Source: Planctomycetota bacterium
Lineage (GTDB): Bacteria; Planctomycetota; SZUA-567; H5-PLA8
Assembly (NCBI GenBank): GCA_027493525.1
Contig: JAOSKN010000002.1
Span: 2,532,279 to 2,596,278, forward strand
Reading direction: 5' to 3'
DNA: 64,000 bases
Of the stretch, positions 720-63,809 are shown piece after piece (position 1 is the stretch's first letter; each line of letters starts with the position of its first letter). Under the pieces are notes generated by a model. The model searched no databases. It was not told the origin of the DNA and worked only from the letters and a program-made list of their open reading frames with translations. The translations under genes were made by a program, and so were the position numbers.

Positions 720-3611
720 ATGCGGAATGATCGGAACTTGGCGGCGGCTTGTGCGCGCCTATTCGGCGCGGTGCTGGCCGTGTGGCTCCTGTGCCCGTCC
801 CTCCTCCTCGCGCTCGACGCCGAACAGGATCCCTTCAAGCCCAAGCCCGAGGACCTGAAGGTTGAAGTCGTCGCGCCCAAGAAGGTGCTCGCCTACGACG
901 CGGCGGCCGCGGTGACGCTGCGCCTGAACAACGTGAGCCGGCGCGCGTTCTCCATCGATCGCGCTCAGATATACCTGTACATGAGCCTCGAATTCGCCTG
1001 GCCGGGGCGCACGGTTGCAGGCGCGCAGGACGCCAAGCGCTTCCTCAAATCCACGCCCTTCGAGAAGGAGGACGCCGAGCGGCTCGCCAAACTCGAACCC
1101 GGCGCGGCGCTGGAATTGCCCCTCGAGCTGGCCTCCATCGCGCGCGAGGCCGTAGGCGAGGTCGAGGTCAAGCTCTCGCTCAGCCATCGCCGCGCCGCGT
1201 ATTGGGGCGATGCGGTCGTCTGGGAAGGCCGGTCTCCAAGGCTCTCCTGCAAGGTCGAATACGAAACCCCCAAGCTGCTGACTCTGATGCGCCCCGCCGA
1301 AGCGCCCAAGCCCGGCGAGGTCAAACGCGCCGTGCTGGAAATCCTCGACGGCCCCGAACGCTCGGCCGAGTGGCTGAGCCTCGCCTTCCGCGGGACCGCG
1401 CCGATCTCCGCCGACCCGCTGGTGGAACTTTTCGAGGCGGGTCGCGACGACGCGCTCGAACCGCTGCGCGGCATCCTGGCCACGTCGATCCTGACTTCCG
1501 AGCATAAGAAGGAGGTACAGGCGCGCTTCTCCGCGGCCCTGGCCCGACGCACGGCCGGCGCCGGCCCCTGGCGCGACGGGATGCTGTCCGCATACCTGCG
1601 CATCGCGGCCGAGCGACCCGCGCCGGCCCAACTGCTGCGCTGGTTCGGCGGCGCCGGCCCCGAAGACCGCGTGGCGCTGCTGGGCGAACTGCTCAAGGAC
1701 CACCCCGAGGCGCAGGCGACAGCCGACGCCTGCCTGGCCGCCTGGGACGAAGCGCCGCTCCGCCCGCGGGTCCTCGCGCTGCTTACCGGCTCGCAGGCGC
1801 CCGCATCCGTCGCGCGCCTGATCTTTCTGCAGCGCCAAGGCGTGGACTTGGCCGTCGGCGTCGCCCGCCGCGCGGACCCGCTCGATGCGGAACTTCAGGA
1901 CGCGTTCGCCGCGCTCGAGGCGCCCCGCCTTGTGGAGGTGCTGCGCGCTTTGCTCGGCCTCGGCCCCAAGCGCGCCGTGGGCCCGTCGCAGCGCGCCTTC
2001 GCCGCGCGCGTGGCCCGCGCAAGCGCATCGGCGGACGTGCGCCGCGCGGCGGTTCTCGCCGCCGGCCTGCCGCCCGAACCCGACGCCGCACTGCTCGCGG
2101 AGCGGGCCGAAAAGGACGCCGACGCGGTTGTCCGCGGTTTCGCGCGCGCGCTTCTGGCGCTGAGCCGGGGCGACGCGCTGCCCCCGCCGCGCATCCGTGC
2201 CATCGTCGAAGCCCGTTGGCCGGAATTCCCCGCGCTGCCGGACGCGAACGCGGCGCTCGCCCAGGCCGAGAACGCTCGCGAACGGCCCGGCGCCGAACTG
2301 CTCGCCGTCGCCTACGCGACCGGCGCCGAGCACCTTCCGCGCCTGCGCAAGCTTCTCGCGCATGCCCAGCCGGACCTCGCCAGCGCCGCCGTCGAGGCCG
2401 CCGGGCGCCTGCGCGACGCCGAGAGCGAGCCCGCGCTCCTGGACCTGCTGCGCCGGCCGCGCGAAGGCGTCTCCCCGGAGGCCGTTCAGCGCGCGCTGCT
2501 GCGGATCGGCGGCCGCGAAGGCCTTGCGGCCCTGCAAGCCGCGCCCAAGCCGCTTGCGAGCGGCCTCAGCCGCGCCCTCGCGGGGCTGACTCGGGAAGGC
2601 GCTCGCTGCGACAGCGAGCTGCCGTGGCTCGATGGGCGTTTCCTTCCCGCGTGGGGCGTTGAACTGTGCGCCTACGGAGTGGGCCGCACCGAGATCGTCC
2701 CCGCCGACCTGGGGCAGCCGTTCATCCTGCTGGTGCACGCCCGGAAGGCCGACGGCGCGGCCGAATGGCATGCGCAACTGCCGGGCCGGCCGCAGCACGC
2801 CTTCGGTCCGTTCCACGCGCTGAAGACGGGCGAGCCGGAGGAGCATTACCTTTCCCTCGACGAGGAACTCGACGCGGGCCGCTACGAAGTCGGCTTCGAG
2901 GCGCTGGCGCTTTTTGCCGGGCGCTGGGATGAGCCCTCCTTCACCTGGGCCGGCCGCGAAGGCAAGGCCCCGGTCTTCGTGCCCGGCTTCGGGCTCGCGC
3001 GGCTGAAGGCCGGGCCGCTGGACTTCGAGGTCAAGCACCGTAACCCGCCGGCCGGCGCGCGGCCCAGGGTCTGGGGGACGCCCGGGCGCGTGCGCATGGA
3101 ATTGGCGCTGCGGATGGGCGCCGCGGAGGCCGCGGAGTACTTCCTGGCCCCGCTCAAGGAACTGAACCTGCGCTTCGGGCGCGACGAGGAGGGCCGCCTG
3201 CGGGGGTGGCGCACCGGCATGCCTCAGGGGCCGCATTACGGCAGCCAGAGCGCGGTGGGACCGATACTTGAGCTGGCGCGCGCGGGCCGGCCCGAAGCCG
3301 TCGCGTTCGCCTTGCGCGCGCGCGAATCCGAGGATCCCTACACGGCTTGGCACGGCACGGCCGCGCTGCGCCTGTTCCAGCTTCGTACTCAGGCCGAGGG
3401 CGGGCGCGAGGCCGCCGCCGCGTGGCTCGCCGAGCTGTACGCGCAGCCCGAGGATTTCTTCGTGGGCTACCAGCGTCTCGTGCCGGAACTCTGCGCACTG
3501 GCCGGCCCCGAGCGGGTCAAGGAAGTCGCCGCCAAAGCCGCCCGCGACGCCGCGCAGCCGTGGATGCGGCTGGAAGCGCGAGGCCTGGCTGAAGGGAAGG
3601 GGGATCGATAA
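720..3611 (+). CDS. Hypothetical secreted protein with HEAT-like alpha-helical repeats
   Basis: Long ORF; N-terminal signal peptide (LFGAVLAVWLLCPSLLLALDA); Ala/Leu/Arg-rich repeated helices; ATG at 720. Confidence 0.7.
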   Translation: MRNDRNLAAACARLFGAVLAVWLLCPSLLLALDAEQDPFKPKPEDLKVEVVAPKKVLAYDAAAAVTLRLNNVSRRAFSIDRAQIYLYMSLEFAWPGRTVAGAQDAKRFLKSTPFEKEDAERLAKLEPGAALELPLELASIAREAVGEVEVKLSLSHRRAAYWGDAVVWEGRSPRLSCKVEYETPKLLTLMRPAEAPKPGEVKRAVLEILDGPERSAEWLSLAFRGTAPISADPLVELFEAGRDDALEPLRGILATSILTSEHKKEVQARFSAALARRTAGAGPWRDGMLSAYLRIAAERPAPAQLLRWFGGAGPEDRVALLGELLKDHPEAQATADACLAAWDEAPLRPRVLALLTGSQAPASVARLIFLQRQGVDLAVGVARRADPLDAELQDAFAALEAPRLVEVLRALLGLGPKRAVGPSQRAFAARVARASASADVRRAAVLAAGLPPEPDAALLAERAEKDADAVVRGFARALLALSRGDALPPPRIRAIVEARWPEFPALPDANAALAQAENARERPGAELLAVAYATGAEHLPRLRKLLAHAQPDLASAAVEAAGRLRDAESEPALLDLLRRPREGVSPEAVQRALLRIGGREGLAALQAAPKPLASGLSRALAGLTREGARCDSELPWLDGRFLPAWGVELCAYGVGRTEIVPADLGQPFILLVHARKADGAAEWHAQLPGRPQHAFGPFHALKTGEPEEHYLSLDEELDAGRYEVGFEALALFAGRWDEPSFTWAGREGKAPVFVPGFGLARLKAGPLDFEVKHRNPPAGARPRVWGTPGRVRMELALRMGAAEAAEYFLAPLKELNLRFGRDEEGRLRGWRTGMPQGPHYGSQSAVGPILELARAGRPEAVAFALRARESEDPYTAWHGTAALRLFQLRTQAEGGREAAAAWLAELYAQPEDFFVGYQRLVPELCALAGPERVKEVAAKAARDAAQPWMRLEARGLAEGKGDR

Positions 3612-3660
3612 ACGGCACAGCGGTCGTACTTAATTCAGTTGCCTTCGCCTTGAGTGGTTT

Positions 3661-3918
3661 CCCCTCCTCACCGAGGAGGGGCAGGGGTGGTGACTGAAAA
3701 TATCCGCGCGAAGCGCGATCCAATTCCCGAATGAAACTTGGGTAAGCCGCTTAGTACCGCGCCGAGGAAGTAACTGGCCCAATGCGCCGGGCATTTTGTT
3801 CCGGATCGAGGCGCGCCGAGGGAGCATATCGGGACGAAGATCTGTGACCGAGGCGCAACGAAGAGCCGGGGCAAAAGGCCCCAGCAGTGGGTCAGGAACT
3901 TCTGCGGCGCGGTACTTA
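3661..3918 (+). repeat. Dispersed repeat copy A (about 255 bp), inverted relative to copy B at 58200-58455
   Basis: Direct comparison: shared stretches such as gaggaggggcaggggtggtga, cgcgcgaagcgcgatcca, agtaactggcccaatgcgccggg, cgagggagcatatcgggacgaagatct, gcaacgaagagccggggcaaaag, gtgggtcaggaactt. Confidence 0.9.
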
Positions 3919-3974
3919 GTGACCGGTTGGCGCGGGGGTCGCCGTTCATGGCCCGCCGATGCTGCTTGCCTTCC

Positions 3975-34915: not shown

Positions 34916-35767
34916 ATGGCTAGGGTGTTAGATTTGAGGCGATCCCTGATTCTGGGCTTCCTGGCGGCGGTGGCATGCGCGACGAGCCAGGCCGGAGCGT
35001 ACCAGGCCGAGCAGGTCGCATACGATTGGCCCGCCGCGATGAAGGCCGTGGCGCAGAAGTTCAAGGGCACGCCTGGGGTCTACCTGCATCTGGGCGATTC
35101 GATCTCGTACGCCAATCCCTATTCGCAGTACGCGCGGAACGGGCAGGGACATAGCGCCGAGGAGAAGGCGTTCCTCAAGTGGTCGCATTGCAACGACCGG
35201 AACGACACCGACGGCTGGTTCCTCACCTCCAACGACGTCCAGAACGGGCGCAGCCACACGGCCGCGAGCGGCGTGCGCGCCGACGAGTACCTCCAGGGCG
35301 GCAAGCACGGCCTGCCGTCGCTGGCCGATATCGTCAAGAAGTACAACCCGCAGATGGCGCTGGTGATGCTCGGCACGAACGACCTCTCGGCGGGCCGCCC
35401 GGTGGCCGCGTACATCGCCGACATGGAGAAGCTCGTCGACGCGCTGCTGGCCAACGGGACGGTGCCGCTCCTCTCGACGCTCCCGCCGCACCTCAAGAAG
35501 ATGGAAGCCTGCGACCAGTACAACGCGGCCCTGAAGGCGCTGGCGGAGAAGAAGAAGCTGCCGCTGGTGGACCTCAACGCCGAGATGCGCGCGCGGGCCG
35601 GCGAGGCGTACACCAAGGGCTACATGGCCGACGACGGCGTGCACCTTAGCCCCGCCAGTTCCAACGGCCCCGCGAGCGAGGAGAACCTCAAGCAGTGCGG
35701 CTACCTCCTGCGCGGCTACCTCGCGGTGCAGAAGGGCATGGAAGTGAAGGCCAAGGTCCTCGACTAG
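34916..35767 (+). CDS. SGNH/GDSL hydrolase-family secreted protein
   Basis: Signal peptide; VYLHLGDSISYANPY (GDS), LVMLGTNDLSAGRPV (GTND), DDGVHLSPAS (DxxH). Confidence 0.85.
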   Translation: MARVLDLRRSLILGFLAAVACATSQAGAYQAEQVAYDWPAAMKAVAQKFKGTPGVYLHLGDSISYANPYSQYARNGQGHSAEEKAFLKWSHCNDRNDTDGWFLTSNDVQNGRSHTAASGVRADEYLQGGKHGLPSLADIVKKYNPQMALVMLGTNDLSAGRPVAAYIADMEKLVDALLANGTVPLLSTLPPHLKKMEACDQYNAALKALAEKKKLPLVDLNAEMRARAGEAYTKGYMADDGVHLSPASSNGPASEENLKQCGYLLRGYLAVQKGMEVKAKVLD

Positions 35768-35931
35768 TGCTCCTTGACTCTTGGTCTTGTGTGTTGCGGA
35801 GAGGAGTTTTGGCCGTGATCAAGGCGCGCGAAGAATCACCGTATCAAGAAGATACGCTGCTCGGAGCGCAACGCAGAGCACGGCCAAAAGAACCGACGCA
35901 ACACACAAGAATAAGAGGCAAGGGGCACTAG
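35764..35931. mobile_element. MITE-like element with long imperfect terminal inverted repeats (about 55 bp) and no coding capacity
   Basis: CTAGTGCTCCTTGACTCTTGGTCTTGTGTGTTGCG...TTTTGGCCGTGATC pairs with GAGCACGGCCAAAAGAACCGACGCAACACACAAGAATAAGAGGCAAGGGGCACTAG. Confidence 0.75.
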
Positions 35932-49782: not shown

Positions 49783-49824
49783 GTTTTCGGTTGCCGGTTG
49801 TTGGTTGCTGGTGGTCGGTTGCGG
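49783..49824 (+). repeat. Heptad array gttttcg-gttgccg-gttgttg-gttgctg-gtggtcg-gttgcgg
   Basis: 7-nt periodicity. Confidence 0.8.
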
Positions 49825-49876
49825 AGGAGTTCCTTATTTTGTGCCGGGTTCGCATTGAGGGCTGTCTGCATGGGCC

Positions 49877-49941
49877 GTTAAAAAGATGCACGGTGGTGCG
49901 TGGGTGGCGGTTGCCGGTTGTCGGTTTTCGGTTGCCGGTTG
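49877..49941 (+). repeat. Hairpin block (ttaaaaagatgcacggtggtgcg) + heptad array (gcggttg-ccggttg-tcggttt-tcggttg-ccggttg), module 1
   Basis: Block homologous to 49992-50022 and 50139-50169. Confidence 0.8.
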
Positions 49942-49991
49942 TTGAGGAGCTTCTCCTTCCCATTCTTGCCTTCCGATCTCGCGGTTGTCCA

Positions 49992-50059
49992 CGAGAGCTT
50001 AAAAAAGATGCACCGTGGTGCGCGACTCCGGGATCCGGGGGCCGGTATCCGGACTCCGG
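49992..50059 (+). repeat. Hairpin block (cgagagcttaaaaaagatgcaccgtggtgcg) + heptad array (actccgg-gatccgg-gggccgg-tatccgg-actccgg), module 2
   Basis: 31-bp block identical to that at 50139-50169. Confidence 0.85.
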
Positions 50060-50096
50060 GGCAGGAAGCAAAGGGGCTCCGTTGGAGCGCTGTTCC

Positions 50097-50124
50097 CTGG
50101 GTCCTGAGTCCGGTTCTCGGCACC
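50097..50124 (+). repeat. Heptad array ctgggtc-ctgagtc-cggttct-cggcacc
   Basis: 7-nt periodicity. Confidence 0.55.
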
Positions 50125-50138
50125 CTTCTTCCAGTCTA

Positions 50139-50204
50139 CGAGAGCTTAAAAAAGATGCACCGTGGTGCGTGGGCGCCGGTTGCCTGTTTTCGGTTCTCGG
50201 TTGC
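50139..50204 (+). repeat. Hairpin block (31 bp, identical to module 2) + heptad array (cggttgc-ctgtttt-cggttct-cggttgc), module 3
   Basis: Direct comparison. Confidence 0.85.
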
Positions 50205-50215
50205 CGCGGAACTTT

Positions 50216-50348
50216 ATCCGTTGCTTGCCACCACCTTCAGGTGGTGGATCGCGGTTCCCTTTTAGGTCTCTTTCCGCCGGCTTAAGCCGGCGGAAAGAGG
50301 ATCGATGGGCTTCGCACCACCGGCTGAAGCCGGTGGCAAGCAACGGAT
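50216..50348. repeat. Nested palindromic element: 17-bp outer inverted repeat enclosing three hairpins
   Basis: atccgttgcttgccacc (50216-50232) / ggtggcaagcaacggat (50332-50348); internal hairpins 50228-50247, 50268-50299, 50317-50336. Confidence 0.85.
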
Positions 50349-50353
50349 TGATG

Positions 50354-50409
50354 GCGGGCGGGACGCCCGCGGTACGGACGGCGTGCCGGCGAGACGCCGG
50401 CGCTACGAA
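50354..50409 (+). repeat. Double-hairpin repeat copy 1 (gcgggcgggacgcccgc...gccggcgagacgccggcgctacgaa)
   Basis: Second copy at 50994-51040. Confidence 0.8.
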
Positions 50410-50717
50410 CCGGACTTCCTGCGCCTGCTTCGGCGCGCTTCGACCGCGGGACGCGAAGGCCGACGCGGAGCCGCCAACTCCGGCGCCGGGCTGCGCTCCT
50501 CCGAGGAGGACGGGGAGCCCCGGCCTCGCGGTTCAAGTGCCCGCGCGCGCGGTCGGGAGTTTGCGCGCGAGCCCGCGAGGTTGAAGAGAGTATCCCCCGC
50601 GCGGGGGCGGTTGTCAATGATAATGTTTATAATATGGATCAAAAACAGTGTCTAAGACATGGGGTATGGCTGGGGGCTGGGGGCTGGGGTTGGGGTTGGG
50701 GTTGGGATTGAGCTTGG

Positions 50718-50818
50718 GCGGCACACCACTGCGTGGTGTGGCACCCCGACTCACGACGCGGCGGGGGGAGATCGGGCGCGGGCAAATGACGACCGGGAGC
50801 CGGTGACCGGCAACCGGC
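50718..50818 (+). repeat. Second module type, copy 1: hairpin block (gcggcacaccactgcgtggtgtggcaccccgactcacgacgcgg) + heptads (gaccggg-agccggt-gaccggc-aaccggc)
   Basis: 44-bp block repeated at 50821-50864 with one difference. Confidence 0.85.
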
Positions 50819-50820
50819 GG

Positions 50821-50915
50821 GCGGCACACCACGGCGTGGTGTGGCACCCCGACTCACGACGCGGTGAAGGGGAGGTGTCGCGCGGGCGACCGGGAACCGA
50901 CAACCGATAACCGGC
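50821..50915 (+). repeat. Second module type, copy 2: hairpin block + heptads (gaccggg-aaccgac-aaccgat-aaccggc)
   Basis: Direct comparison with copy 1. Confidence 0.85.
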
Positions 50916-52201: not shown

Positions 52202-52291
52202 GCGGAGGTTAGGAAATAAGAGTCAAGGGTCGAAAAATCAAAAAGACAAAAGTCAAAGGTCCAAAACTAAGAGAATCGAAAACTAAGCGTC

Positions 52292-52375
52292 ATTGGTCAT
52301 TGGTCATTGGTCATTGGTCATTGGTCATTGGTCATTGGTCATTGGTCATTGGTCATTGGTCTACGGTCTACGGTC
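52292..52375 (+). repeat. Heptad array (ATTGGTC)x10 followed by (TACGGTC)x2; STRR2-like
   Basis: Counted directly: ten perfect copies 52292-52361 then two variant copies. Confidence 0.97.
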
Positions 52376-52392
52376 AACGCTGCGGCGAGGGG

Positions 52393-53077: not shown

Positions 53078-53119
53078 CTGTGATCTGTAATCTGTAATCT
53101 GTAATCTGTGAACTGTGAT
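53078..53119 (+). repeat. Heptad array ctgtgat-(ctgtaat)x3-ctgtgaa-ctgtgat
   Basis: Read directly. Confidence 0.95.
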
Positions 53120-53169
53120 CCATAAATGGTGGCGGAGGTGTCAAAGAAATTAGAGCAAGTGCCGCCGTT

Positions 53170-53218
53170 ACAGATTACAGATTACAGATTACAGATTACA
53201 GAATACAGATCACAGTTC
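53170..53218 (+). repeat. Heptad array (acagatt)x4-acagaat-acagatc-acagttc; reverse complement of the 53078-53119 array
   Basis: Read directly; inverted relative to the neighbouring array. Confidence 0.95.
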
Positions 53219-56957: not shown

Positions 56958-58031
56958 TTGGCCACCCCCGAGATGCTGCTCGAGGATCTGCTCAAAAGCC
57001 CCGGCGAGTGGCTGGGCGGGACCGGTCCGCACGCCGACATCGTAATCTCGAGCCGGGTCCGCTTCGCGCGGAACCTCGCCGGCCACCGCTTCATGTCCAA
57101 GATGGACGCCGACGAGCGGCAGGAGGTCGTGGACCGCGTCCGCGGCCGGATCGTCAAGGCGAAGGTGGTTCCCGCCGAGCGCGTGCTGCAGCTCCAGAGC
57201 GTCCCGCGCCTCGACCTGAAGCTGCTGGTCGAGCGGCACCTGATCAGCAAGGAGCAGGAGGAATCGCAGCACCCGCGCGCGGTGGCGATCGGCGAGGGCG
57301 AGGCCGTCGCGATCATGGTCAACGAAGAGGACCACATCCGCCTGCAGGTGCTCAAGAGCGGGATGCAGCTCCAGGAGACGCTGAAGACCGCCACGGAGAT
57401 CGACGGGAAGCTCGAGGGCGGGCTGGACTACGCTTTCTCGCCCGAGCTGGGCTACCTGACCGCCTGCCCGACCAACGTGGGCACGGGGCTGCGCGTCTCG
57501 GTGATGCTGCACCTGCCGGCGCTGGTGCTGACGCGGCACATCGAGAAAGTCTTCCAGGCGGTCAACAAGATCAACCTGGCGGTGCGCGGGCTGTACGGGG
57601 AAGGCACCGAGGCGAGCGGGCACTTCTACCAGATCTCCAATCAGGTCACGCTGGGCAAGAGCGAGGAGGAGGTGCTCGCCAACGTCGAGCAAGTGATCCC
57701 GACGATCGTGAACTACGAGAAGAAGGCGCGCGAGGAGCTGCTGAAGAAAGACCGCGTGCGGCTGGAAGACCGGGTTTGGCGCGCCCACGGGATGCTCTGC
57801 GCCGCGCGGGTGATGTCCTCGGACGAATCGATGATGCTGCTCAGCGCGGTGCGCATGGGCGTGCACCTGGGGCTGCTGCCGGACGTGAACCTGGCGACGG
57901 TGAACGAACTGTTCCTGTTCTCGCAGCCCGCGCACCTGCAGAAGCTCGCCCACAAACAGCTCGAACCGCTCCAGCGCGACGTGCGGCGCGCGGAGTTCAT
58001 CCGCGGGAAGCTGCAAGGCGGCTCGAAGTAG
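56958..58031 (+). CDS. mcsB: Protein arginine kinase McsB (ATP:guanido phosphotransferase family)
   Basis: DIVISSRVRFARNLAGHRF, NEEDHIRLQVLKSGMQLQETL, LGYLTACPTNVGTGLRVSVMLHLPAL, YGEGTEASGHFYQISNQVTLG. Confidence 0.95.
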   Translation: MATPEMLLEDLLKSPGEWLGGTGPHADIVISSRVRFARNLAGHRFMSKMDADERQEVVDRVRGRIVKAKVVPAERVLQLQSVPRLDLKLLVERHLISKEQEESQHPRAVAIGEGEAVAIMVNEEDHIRLQVLKSGMQLQETLKTATEIDGKLEGGLDYAFSPELGYLTACPTNVGTGLRVSVMLHLPALVLTRHIEKVFQAVNKINLAVRGLYGEGTEASGHFYQISNQVTLGKSEEEVLANVEQVIPTIVNYEKKAREELLKKDRVRLEDRVWRAHGMLCAARVMSSDESMMLLSAVRMGVHLGLLPDVNLATVNELFLFSQPAHLQKLAHKQLEPLQRDVRRAEFIRGKLQGGSK

Positions 58032-58199: not shown

Positions 58200-58455
58200 C
58201 AAGTACCGCGCCGCGGAAGTTCCTGACCCACGGCGCAGGGTCTTTTGCCCCGGCTCTTCGTTGCGTCTCGGGCATAGATCTTCGTCCCGATATGCTCCCT
58301 CGACGCGCCTCGATCCGGGACAAAATACCCGGCGCATTGGGCCAGTTACTTCTGCGGCGTTAAGCGGTCTTGCGTAAGTCTATTCGGAATTTGGATCGCG
58401 CTTCGCGCGTATTTCTCGGTCACCACCCCTGCCCCTCCTCGGAGAGGTGGAGGAA
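58200..58455 (-). repeat. Dispersed repeat copy B (about 255 bp), inverted copy of 3661-3918
   Basis: Direct comparison of reverse complement with copy A. Confidence 0.9.
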
Positions 58456-58518
58456 CAGCGCAGGGCTATGGCAAACAACACCTGTAAGACCGCTTTGCGT
58501 TGGAGAGCCAAAGGCTCC

Positions 58519-62589: not shown

Positions 62590-62633
62590 AGCAAACTGCA
62601 TGCATTCGACGTGTTGGGTCTTCAACCGTTCGC

Positions 62634-62661
62634 CGATTACAGATTACAGATTACAGATTAC
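62634..62661 (+). repeat. Heptad array cgattac-(agattac)x3
   Basis: Contains the stop codon of the thiO-like gene (62651-62653). Confidence 0.92.
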
Positions 62662-63809
62662 TGGCCACGGCCTTCCTCGGCATCCAGGGGCCAATCTCCA
62701 CCGGGGGGGGCTCGCCGGCGACGAGCGCGGCGACGACTTCGCCGGAGATCGGGGCGAGCAGGATGCCGTTGCGGAAGTGCCCTGCGGCGACATAGAGCCC
62801 TTCCACATCAGGGACGGGGCCCAGGAGCGGATGCACGCCGCGGAGGCCCGGGCGGACGTCGGCCCAGCCCTGCGCGGGTTCGACATGCCTGAGGAAGGGC
62901 AGCAGTCGCCTGGCGAAATCGCGCAACTCGGCCTGTCCTTCGGGCGTCGTGACGGTCTCGAAGCCGACGCGCTCCATGGTGCTGCCGGCGAGGATCAGGC
63001 CGTCCGGGCGCGGCACGAGGTAATGCTCGCCCGTCGTCAGGAGCCGCGTGCAGCGCCCGGGTTCGACCTGGAAGCAGGCGATCTGCCCGCGGACCGGCTC
63101 GATCCTGCCCGCGCGCGGCACGCGCCGCGCGAGGTCCTCGAAGCGGCCCGTCCAGGCCCCGGCGCAGACCACGACGTGGCGCGCTGCGTAGCGCTTGCCG
63201 TCGGAATCCACGGCGCCGCGCGCGCGGTCGCCTTCGATCCAGAGTTCGGTGACGGCCACGCCTTCGCGGATCAGGGCGCCGCGTTGGCGGCACGAGGCGG
63301 CCAGCGCCCGCGCGAGGCGCGGATTGCGGACCTGGCCGTCGTCGGGGGAGGTGGACGGCCGCGGCGATGCGGCTCGCGTCGAGTTCGGGCTCCAGTTCGC
63401 GCGCCCGCTCGGACGAGAGGCGTTCGGCGCGGAGTCCGCGCGCGCGGCAGCCTTCGACCATGCGCTCCAGGTTGGCCAGCGCGGCCTCGCCGGCGTTTTC
63501 GGCCAGACAGAGTTCGAGCGCGCCGCAGCGGACGTAGCCGCCGTCGATGCCGGTCTCTTCGAGGAGCCTTGCGTGCCAACGGCGATGCAGCTCCAGGCTC
63601 GCCAGCGCGAGATCGTGGTAGTCGTGCTCTTCGGTGCGCGGCCAGGGGCGGCAGTTGAGCATGCCGGAGCCGGCCCAGGAGGCGCGCGAGCCGACGCGTT
63701 CGCGTTCGAGCACCGTCACGCGCAAGCCGCGGCGGAGCGCGGCCTCCGCGGCGCAGAGCCCCACCAGCCCGCCTCCGACGACCAGAAGGTCGGGAACGCC
63801 ATCGTTCAT
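62651..63809 (-). pseudogene. thiO: Glycine oxidase ThiO / FAD-dependent oxidoreductase with one apparent frameshift
   Basis: N-part PDLLVVGGGLVGLCAAEAALRRGLRVTVLERERVGSRASWAGSGML; C-part RHVVVCAGAWTG...RPDGLILAGSTMERVGFET...LYVAAGHFRNGILLAP in another frame; shift in G5 run 63344-63348. Confidence 0.82.

Follow-up and report, generated by a model that had tools for sequence, protein, structure and literature searches.

A folded core common to MITEs with unrelated ends in a planctomycete genome and its probable kinship with the Flavo-1 RNA

The two copies of a 255-bp repeat in a 64,000-nucleotide stretch of a Planctomycetota genome (the whole of which is referred to as the window) very probably each contain a MITE, designated element A, which is mobilized in trans and lies beside a second element, B. 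The core of A, consisting of a head and a stem, would then be a module folding in a strand-specific manner, probably kin to the Flavo-1 RNA and borne by a superfamily of MITEs spread across the phylum, in which ends were probably swapped within the head. Interiors of MITEs are usually regarded as filler. Here, a folded core outlasts the ends that move it, and roughly one in five of the genomes sampled from the phylum contains it, with strand-specific covariation. An incomplete search of the literature yielded no description of a structured core common to MITEs with unrelated ends.

Composition of the repeat pair

According to the original prediction, the window contains a near-identical 255-bp repeat in two inverted copies (3661-3918 and 58200-58455), both located in convergent intergenic regions. 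Sequence comparison and alignment confirmed the positions and the opposite orientation, with 85% identity over 278 bases. The pair is the longest inverted pair within the window and is composed of the blocks I1 (122 nt, 93%), I2 (62 nt, 81%), I3 (59 nt, 73%) and I8 (34 nt, 94%). Near-identity applies to the right-hand 165 bp (about 93%) but not to the left part (73-81%). The convergent setting was likewise verified, with flanking stop codons at 3611 (+) and 3975 (-) for copy 1 and at 58031 (+) and 58519 (-) for copy 2. The neighbours of copy 1 (3.6-4.0 kb) encode a HEAT-repeat protein and a beta-helix protein, and those of copy 2 (58.0-58.5 kb) an ATP:guanido phosphotransferase and a protein kinase. 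Genes were called by a codon model made in this analysis, single calls of which may be wrong.

When a 300-bp query was searched against the genome (7.46 Mb, 6 contigs), the repeats were found to be dispersed as proposed, but their left and right parts also occurred apart. At least about 30 complete or almost complete copies of the right part (about 165 bp) are present, and at other sites the left 115 bp were found alone; all genome copy counts given here are lower bounds. The 255-bp repeat is not one element but a composite of two mobile elements side by side, A and B, each of which was found separately elsewhere in the genome. The two kinds of palindromic sequence quoted in the prediction are present and fall to different elements: A, on the right, has the inverted ends agtaccgcgccg / cggcgcggtact as its terminal inverted repeats, and the hairpins cccctcctc-acc-gaggagggg and cgcgcgaagcgcg belong to B on the left.

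B is a MITE-like repeat with the ends AGCGGTC...GCCGCT / AGCGGTC...GACCGCT, located at 3619-3751 (+) in copy 1 and, as delimited by alignment, at 58363-58494 (-) in copy 2. The genome contains at least 34 matches to B, the majority of which stand without A. Its right junction reads CTTAG, which is the site occupied by A. In a related class (AGCGGCCTTGCGG...) of the same genome, CTAAG at the left and CTTAG at the right are typical, which fits a duplication of TA within CTAG. Such a duplication generates the junctions CTAAG and CTTAG, and both are targets for A. A junction of B that supplies a target site would explain the position of A next to the end of B in either copy within the window, as well as the occurrence of A, or of fragments of it, directly adjoining B at three other loci (L024, L094 and L096). 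The 255-bp composite would thus have arisen by insertion of A at the CTTAG junction of B.

Ends, target site and copies of element A

Copy 1 of A comprises 162 bp at 3754-3915 (+), as defined by the alignment of 30 copies with their flanks and by the target duplication. It has the ends GTACCGCGCC...GGCGCGGTAC and is flanked by CTTAG on both sides (3750-3754 and 3915-3919), the duplicated target being TTA. Copy 2, placed by alignment at about 58203-58361 (-), has lost about 5 bases from its 5' end, and its right target copy is degenerate (CTTGG). The inverted ends GTACCGCGCCGC were found in at least about 30 genome copies, and in the alignment of copies with flanks the boundaries are sharp at CTNAG. 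With up to 3 mismatches allowed, the end pattern gave 83 genome matches, far above chance, since the reversed control gave 0.

The check for target-site duplications gave a positive result. In 22 of 26 scorable copies the N of the flanking CTNAG is identical at the left and right side, and in one copy it is complementary, which shows that the target is duplicated and not a palindrome. In the simplest reading of these sequences, A would duplicate TNA within CTNAG; a 5-bp duplication of CTNAG would look the same unless empty sites are compared. Hence, the proposal of a non-autonomous mobile element holds for A, which has terminal inverted repeats, the TNA duplication, many dispersed copies and no open reading frame of its own. 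Its 162 bp lie below the 600 bp expected for MITEs, no called gene covers it, and none of 70 classifiable core elements was located inside a gene. It is nearly certain that A is a MITE by each defining feature examined, i.e. terminal inverted repeats, target duplication, dispersal and a short, non-coding sequence. Prokaryotic MITEs such as Chunjie of Geobacter uraniireducens and QMITE of Coxiella resemble it in these respects, as they are short and non-coding, have inverted ends and direct target repeats and occur in many intergenic copies (PMC10969869). Stem-loop transcripts have been predicted for prokaryotic MITEs (review PMC10969869); the elements described here differ in the conserved, covarying and strand-specific head that is common to MITEs with unrelated ends.

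It is extremely improbable that the elements are REP/BIME-like palindromes moved by a RAYT (HUH) transposase. They share with REPs and BIMEs the dispersed intergenic location and the palindromic structure, sometimes in inverted pairs, and some elements here do form inverted head pairs. Furthermore, some 200 bp separate an A-like end (26 bases, 96%) in genome G003 from an open reading frame recognized by eye as RAYT-like (L119, 1726-2236). REPs, however, comprise 20-40 bp and mostly carry GTAG/CGTC tags (PMC3733652), whereas A has about 160 bp, long terminal inverted repeats and an identical, not complementary, N on either side. A RAYT-type partner for A was ruled out by the duplicated target.

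No copy of A was detected in the congener G001, so that A either spread after the split from G001 or was lost there. A pattern search of named genomes with A's own end gave no match, and neither did plasmid searches with A and with an element of the GCAGCCCGTTGAAAA class or pattern searches for the elements in IMG/VR. At L106 (2626-2650) of the genome studied here, the sequence CTGAGTACCGCGCCGCGGTACTCAG represents two fused A ends forming a minimal palindrome of 25 bp. In G108, a genome of the same phylum, about 230 elements with A-like ends were observed (241 forward and 219 reverse end matches; control 0).

Mobilization and insertion sites

Target habits of TA or TNA within CTAG or CTNAG are characteristic of the IS427 and IS1031 subgroups of the IS5 superfamily. 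Because of the same target choice (TNA within CTNAG), it is likely that an IS5-superfamily-like transposase moves A in trans; sister classes of A appear to use TA within CTAG. Unlike these insertion sequences, A contains no transposase, and an autonomous partner with the ends of A was not found in this genome among the DDE_Tnp_1, DUF4096 and DUF772 families. In genome G004, a DUF4096 insertion sequence and a core-carrying MITE are located side by side at a shared CTAG. A GCAGCCCGTTGAAAA-class end, found at one side, closely precedes a DUF772 transposase in the same genome, and no head was present in the stretch of this insertion sequence that was read. Four DDE_Tnp_1 insertion sequences of the genome studied here (L111-L114) possess inverted ends of about 36 nt containing CAATACTGTTCGG, which are unrelated to those of A.

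The 70 classifiable core copies lie in convergent (17), tandem (35) and divergent (18) intergenic regions. No orientation bias towards the neighbouring genes was found in the tandem contexts (19 same, 16 opposite). The suggestion that the repeat is a bidirectional terminator is therefore not supported as a general role, with 17 of 70 copies convergent and only weak terminator-like matches. That such a terminator or insulator is retained between convergent genes, and is not a mobile element at all, is highly improbable. A convergent setting applies to the two copies in the window and to 12 of 30 A copies, compared to 20% of the intergenic bases of the window (p=0.01), but the other classes are convergent in 5 of 40 cases, three weak terminator-like matches stand against 0.7 expected, and the target duplication shows transposition. 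A Rho-independent terminator (stem-loop followed by a T run, in convergent position) was rejected as a candidate, as matches were weak and most core elements lie in non-convergent contexts.

Insertion sites of A often coincide with the ends of genes. In 10 of 30 A copies the stop codon of a neighbouring gene is the duplicated TNA, compared to 16 of 151 non-coding CTNAG sites (binomial p=7e-4; Fisher p=0.003), and in an eleventh copy the stop codon overlaps CTNAG one base further on. Duplication of the target leaves the gene with its stop codon intact. The location of A at stop codons may thus result in part from selection against gene damage.

Distribution of the core among MITEs with different ends

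The internal 100 bp of A recur with different ends, both in relatives and in the same genome. The first covariance model of the core was built from nine cores carrying different ends; in the following, scores of the two covariance models R1 and R2 are given. The structured core of A copy 1 (3784-3887; + is the folding strand) scored 110.6 bits with R1 and 104.5 bits with R2, and that of copy 2 (58232-58335, -) 99.1 and 90.9 bits, respectively. A third member of the family in the window (35764-35931, +) has different ends (CTAGTGCTCCTTGACTC...) with inverted arms of 35 nt (89%), and its core (35796-35901) scored 51.6 and 77.5 bits. Here, the left CTAG overlaps the stop codon called for the GDSL-lipase gene upstream (35039-35767), the codon being the TAG of this site.

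Matches to the core model numbered at least 92 in this genome, 84 in G005, 39 in G004, 28 in G047 and 6 in G001; none were obtained in G002, G003, G006, G007 and G044. With a wider covariance model, 65 of the 294 genomes examined from the phylum proved to contain the core; a sequence pattern detected it in named Verrucomicrobia MAGs. Among the matches printed from other genomes, nearly all possess inverted arms whose ends lie at CTAG or CTNAG or close to it. In a comparison of 43 sequences, similarity at z>3 was found for the head in 91% of the pairs and for the outer arms in 11%. The proportion for the head remained 91% among the 709 pairs whose arms are unrelated. The head is a module carried by a phylum-wide superfamily of MITEs with otherwise unrelated ends.

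Two chimeric elements indicate how the same head might have acquired different ends. L095 combines the left half of A with the right half of the class found at 35764 in the window, and L107 combines the left half of the GCAGCCCGTTGAAAA class with the right half of A; in both, the switch lies inside the head. This suggests that ends are exchanged by recombination inside the shared head, although there are two such chimeras only and degradation could mimic an exchange. Recombination within the common head would then swap ends between MITE classes. In this genome, in G001 and in G004 there are elements in which a single pair of ends encloses two inverted heads, and a similar pair of heads was found in a Verrucomicrobia MAG and in G168.

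Alternatively, the core itself might be a mobile or recombinogenic hairpin which enters the centre of unrelated palindromic MITEs. The central position of the same head in many classes of inverted ends would agree with this, and headless elements with A ends do exist (70-92 bp; L110 and L108). These headless elements, however, resemble internal deletions of A that keep parts of the inner arms, and neither a duplication nor a fixed junction was seen at the edges of the head, which makes entry of a hairpin quite unlikely.

Folding of the head

Covariance modelling revealed a covarying structure in the core. In a broad alignment of heads, 92% of the cells pair and changes on both sides occurred in 23 of 25 pairs. 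The covariation score was 0.724, compared to 0.183 after shuffling and at most 0.12 with slid partners; covariation was counted on a model-fitted alignment of copies that are not independent, and an inverted repeat is expected to covary anyway. In the main stem of the head, G.U pairs outnumber A.C mismatches by 38 to 1, with a p-value (1.5e-10) that overstates the case, the copies not being independent. The asymmetry falls to G.U 123 against A.C 49 when all 25 pairs of the first alignment are counted, since the weak outer and inner pairs contribute every kind of mismatch.

A palindrome kept only as double-stranded DNA should give equal numbers of G.U and A.C, and an excess of G.U points to folding of one strand. 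By this asymmetry, which is stronger evidence than the covariation, the strand of the head given here is the one that folds, either as RNA or as single-stranded DNA; the fold may act as RNA. Of the possibilities raised in the original prediction, that of a structured RNA is therefore supported for the core by the covariation and the G.U/A.C asymmetry, but RNA and single-stranded DNA fit these data alike.

It appears unlikely that the head is merely the old interior of a palindromic MITE, without function and apparently conserved as its copies are recently related. The copies within a class are alike and not independent, and the lack of an orientation bias towards genes would also be expected in this case. 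Against this, heads are similar across many families despite unrelated arms, compensatory changes occur in the stem while the loops stay, and the strand asymmetry amounts to 38:1.

Relationship to Flavo-1 and putative function of the head

The window was also inspected for a known riboswitch, an rRNA spacer or the remnant of an insertion sequence. None was detected at the Rfam thresholds, and a scan of the window at the Rfam cutoffs gave no match; the only link was to Flavo-1, below the threshold and in a relative. At gathering and relaxed thresholds, Flavo-1 was the sole meaningful match. In G005, the Flavo-1 model (RF01705) gave 14 matches (E 1.1e-6 to 0.003), all of them on head sites and on the same strand. 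The best of these covered the full length of the model (1-76/76) on the head strand with 39.6 bits (E=1.1e-6), the gathering cutoff being 42 bits. In the genome studied here, the model gave one match, located on an A copy (17.4 bits, E=2.24); the A copy of the window was not matched, and scores were near zero for most head classes. Since A itself matches unconvincingly, the link rests on the class in G005, and since the scores remain below the cutoff, the heads are regarded as likely distant relatives of Flavo-1 and not as members of this family. Internal-loop motifs (GATYGARG ... CG.A.AGC) and topology are similar in both.

In 2010, Flavo-1 was listed as a probable RNA of Bacteroidetes that is probably not cis-regulatory (PMC2864571). 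It differs from the heads in that the sources consulted (RF01705; PMC2864571) list it for Bacteroidetes without a description as part of a MITE. In Flavobacterium psychrophilum it occurs in sense and antisense orientation, often outside leaders and with no clue to its function (PMC9723704), and the literature searched reports no function for it. A mobile origin would account for this placement. Flavo-1 is not confined to MITEs: bona fide matches (56-64 bits) were obtained in small plasmids of Paraclostridium bifermentans (L290-L293), within a region that these plasmids share. It is conserved, non-coding and unannotated, extends over several hundred bases, and inverted ends were not noticed in it. 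This region is possibly a larger structured RNA. In an IMG/VR contig (L294, 291-340), a Flavo-1-like hairpin lies between ATTAGGG ... CCCTAAT, which could be the short inverted ends of a mobile element.

The chances are about even that Flavo-1-like RNAs are a portable functional module, carried by MITEs between sets of ends and selected as RNA, which would account for the nature of the orphan Flavo-1 motif and for its patternless sense and antisense placement. The head family offers a concrete and testable origin for Flavo-1 and may help to explain such RNAs.

Regarding the function of the head, we tentatively favour a role in cis at the RNA level, for example that of a hairpin by which read-through transcripts are processed or insulated, so that insertions at gene ends would be harmless. 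This preference is due to the crowding of insertions at gene ends and to the inverted double heads, in which transcription from either direction would meet one head in sense orientation; the missing orientation bias of single heads counts against it. A trans-acting RNA or the binding of a host factor would be possible with lower probability, and it is rather doubtful that the hairpin serves transposition or recombination.

Other repeats in the window

Besides the elements described above, three intergenic arrays of 7-base units (GTCATTG; GATTACA / CTGTAAT) were observed at 52275-52386, 53078-53215 and 62621-62668, two of them in inverted orientation. In addition, an intergenic cluster of short direct and inverted repeats (47, 36 and 53 nt) is located at 49788-50871 and contains hairpins such as CCACCACCTTCAGGTGGTGG.
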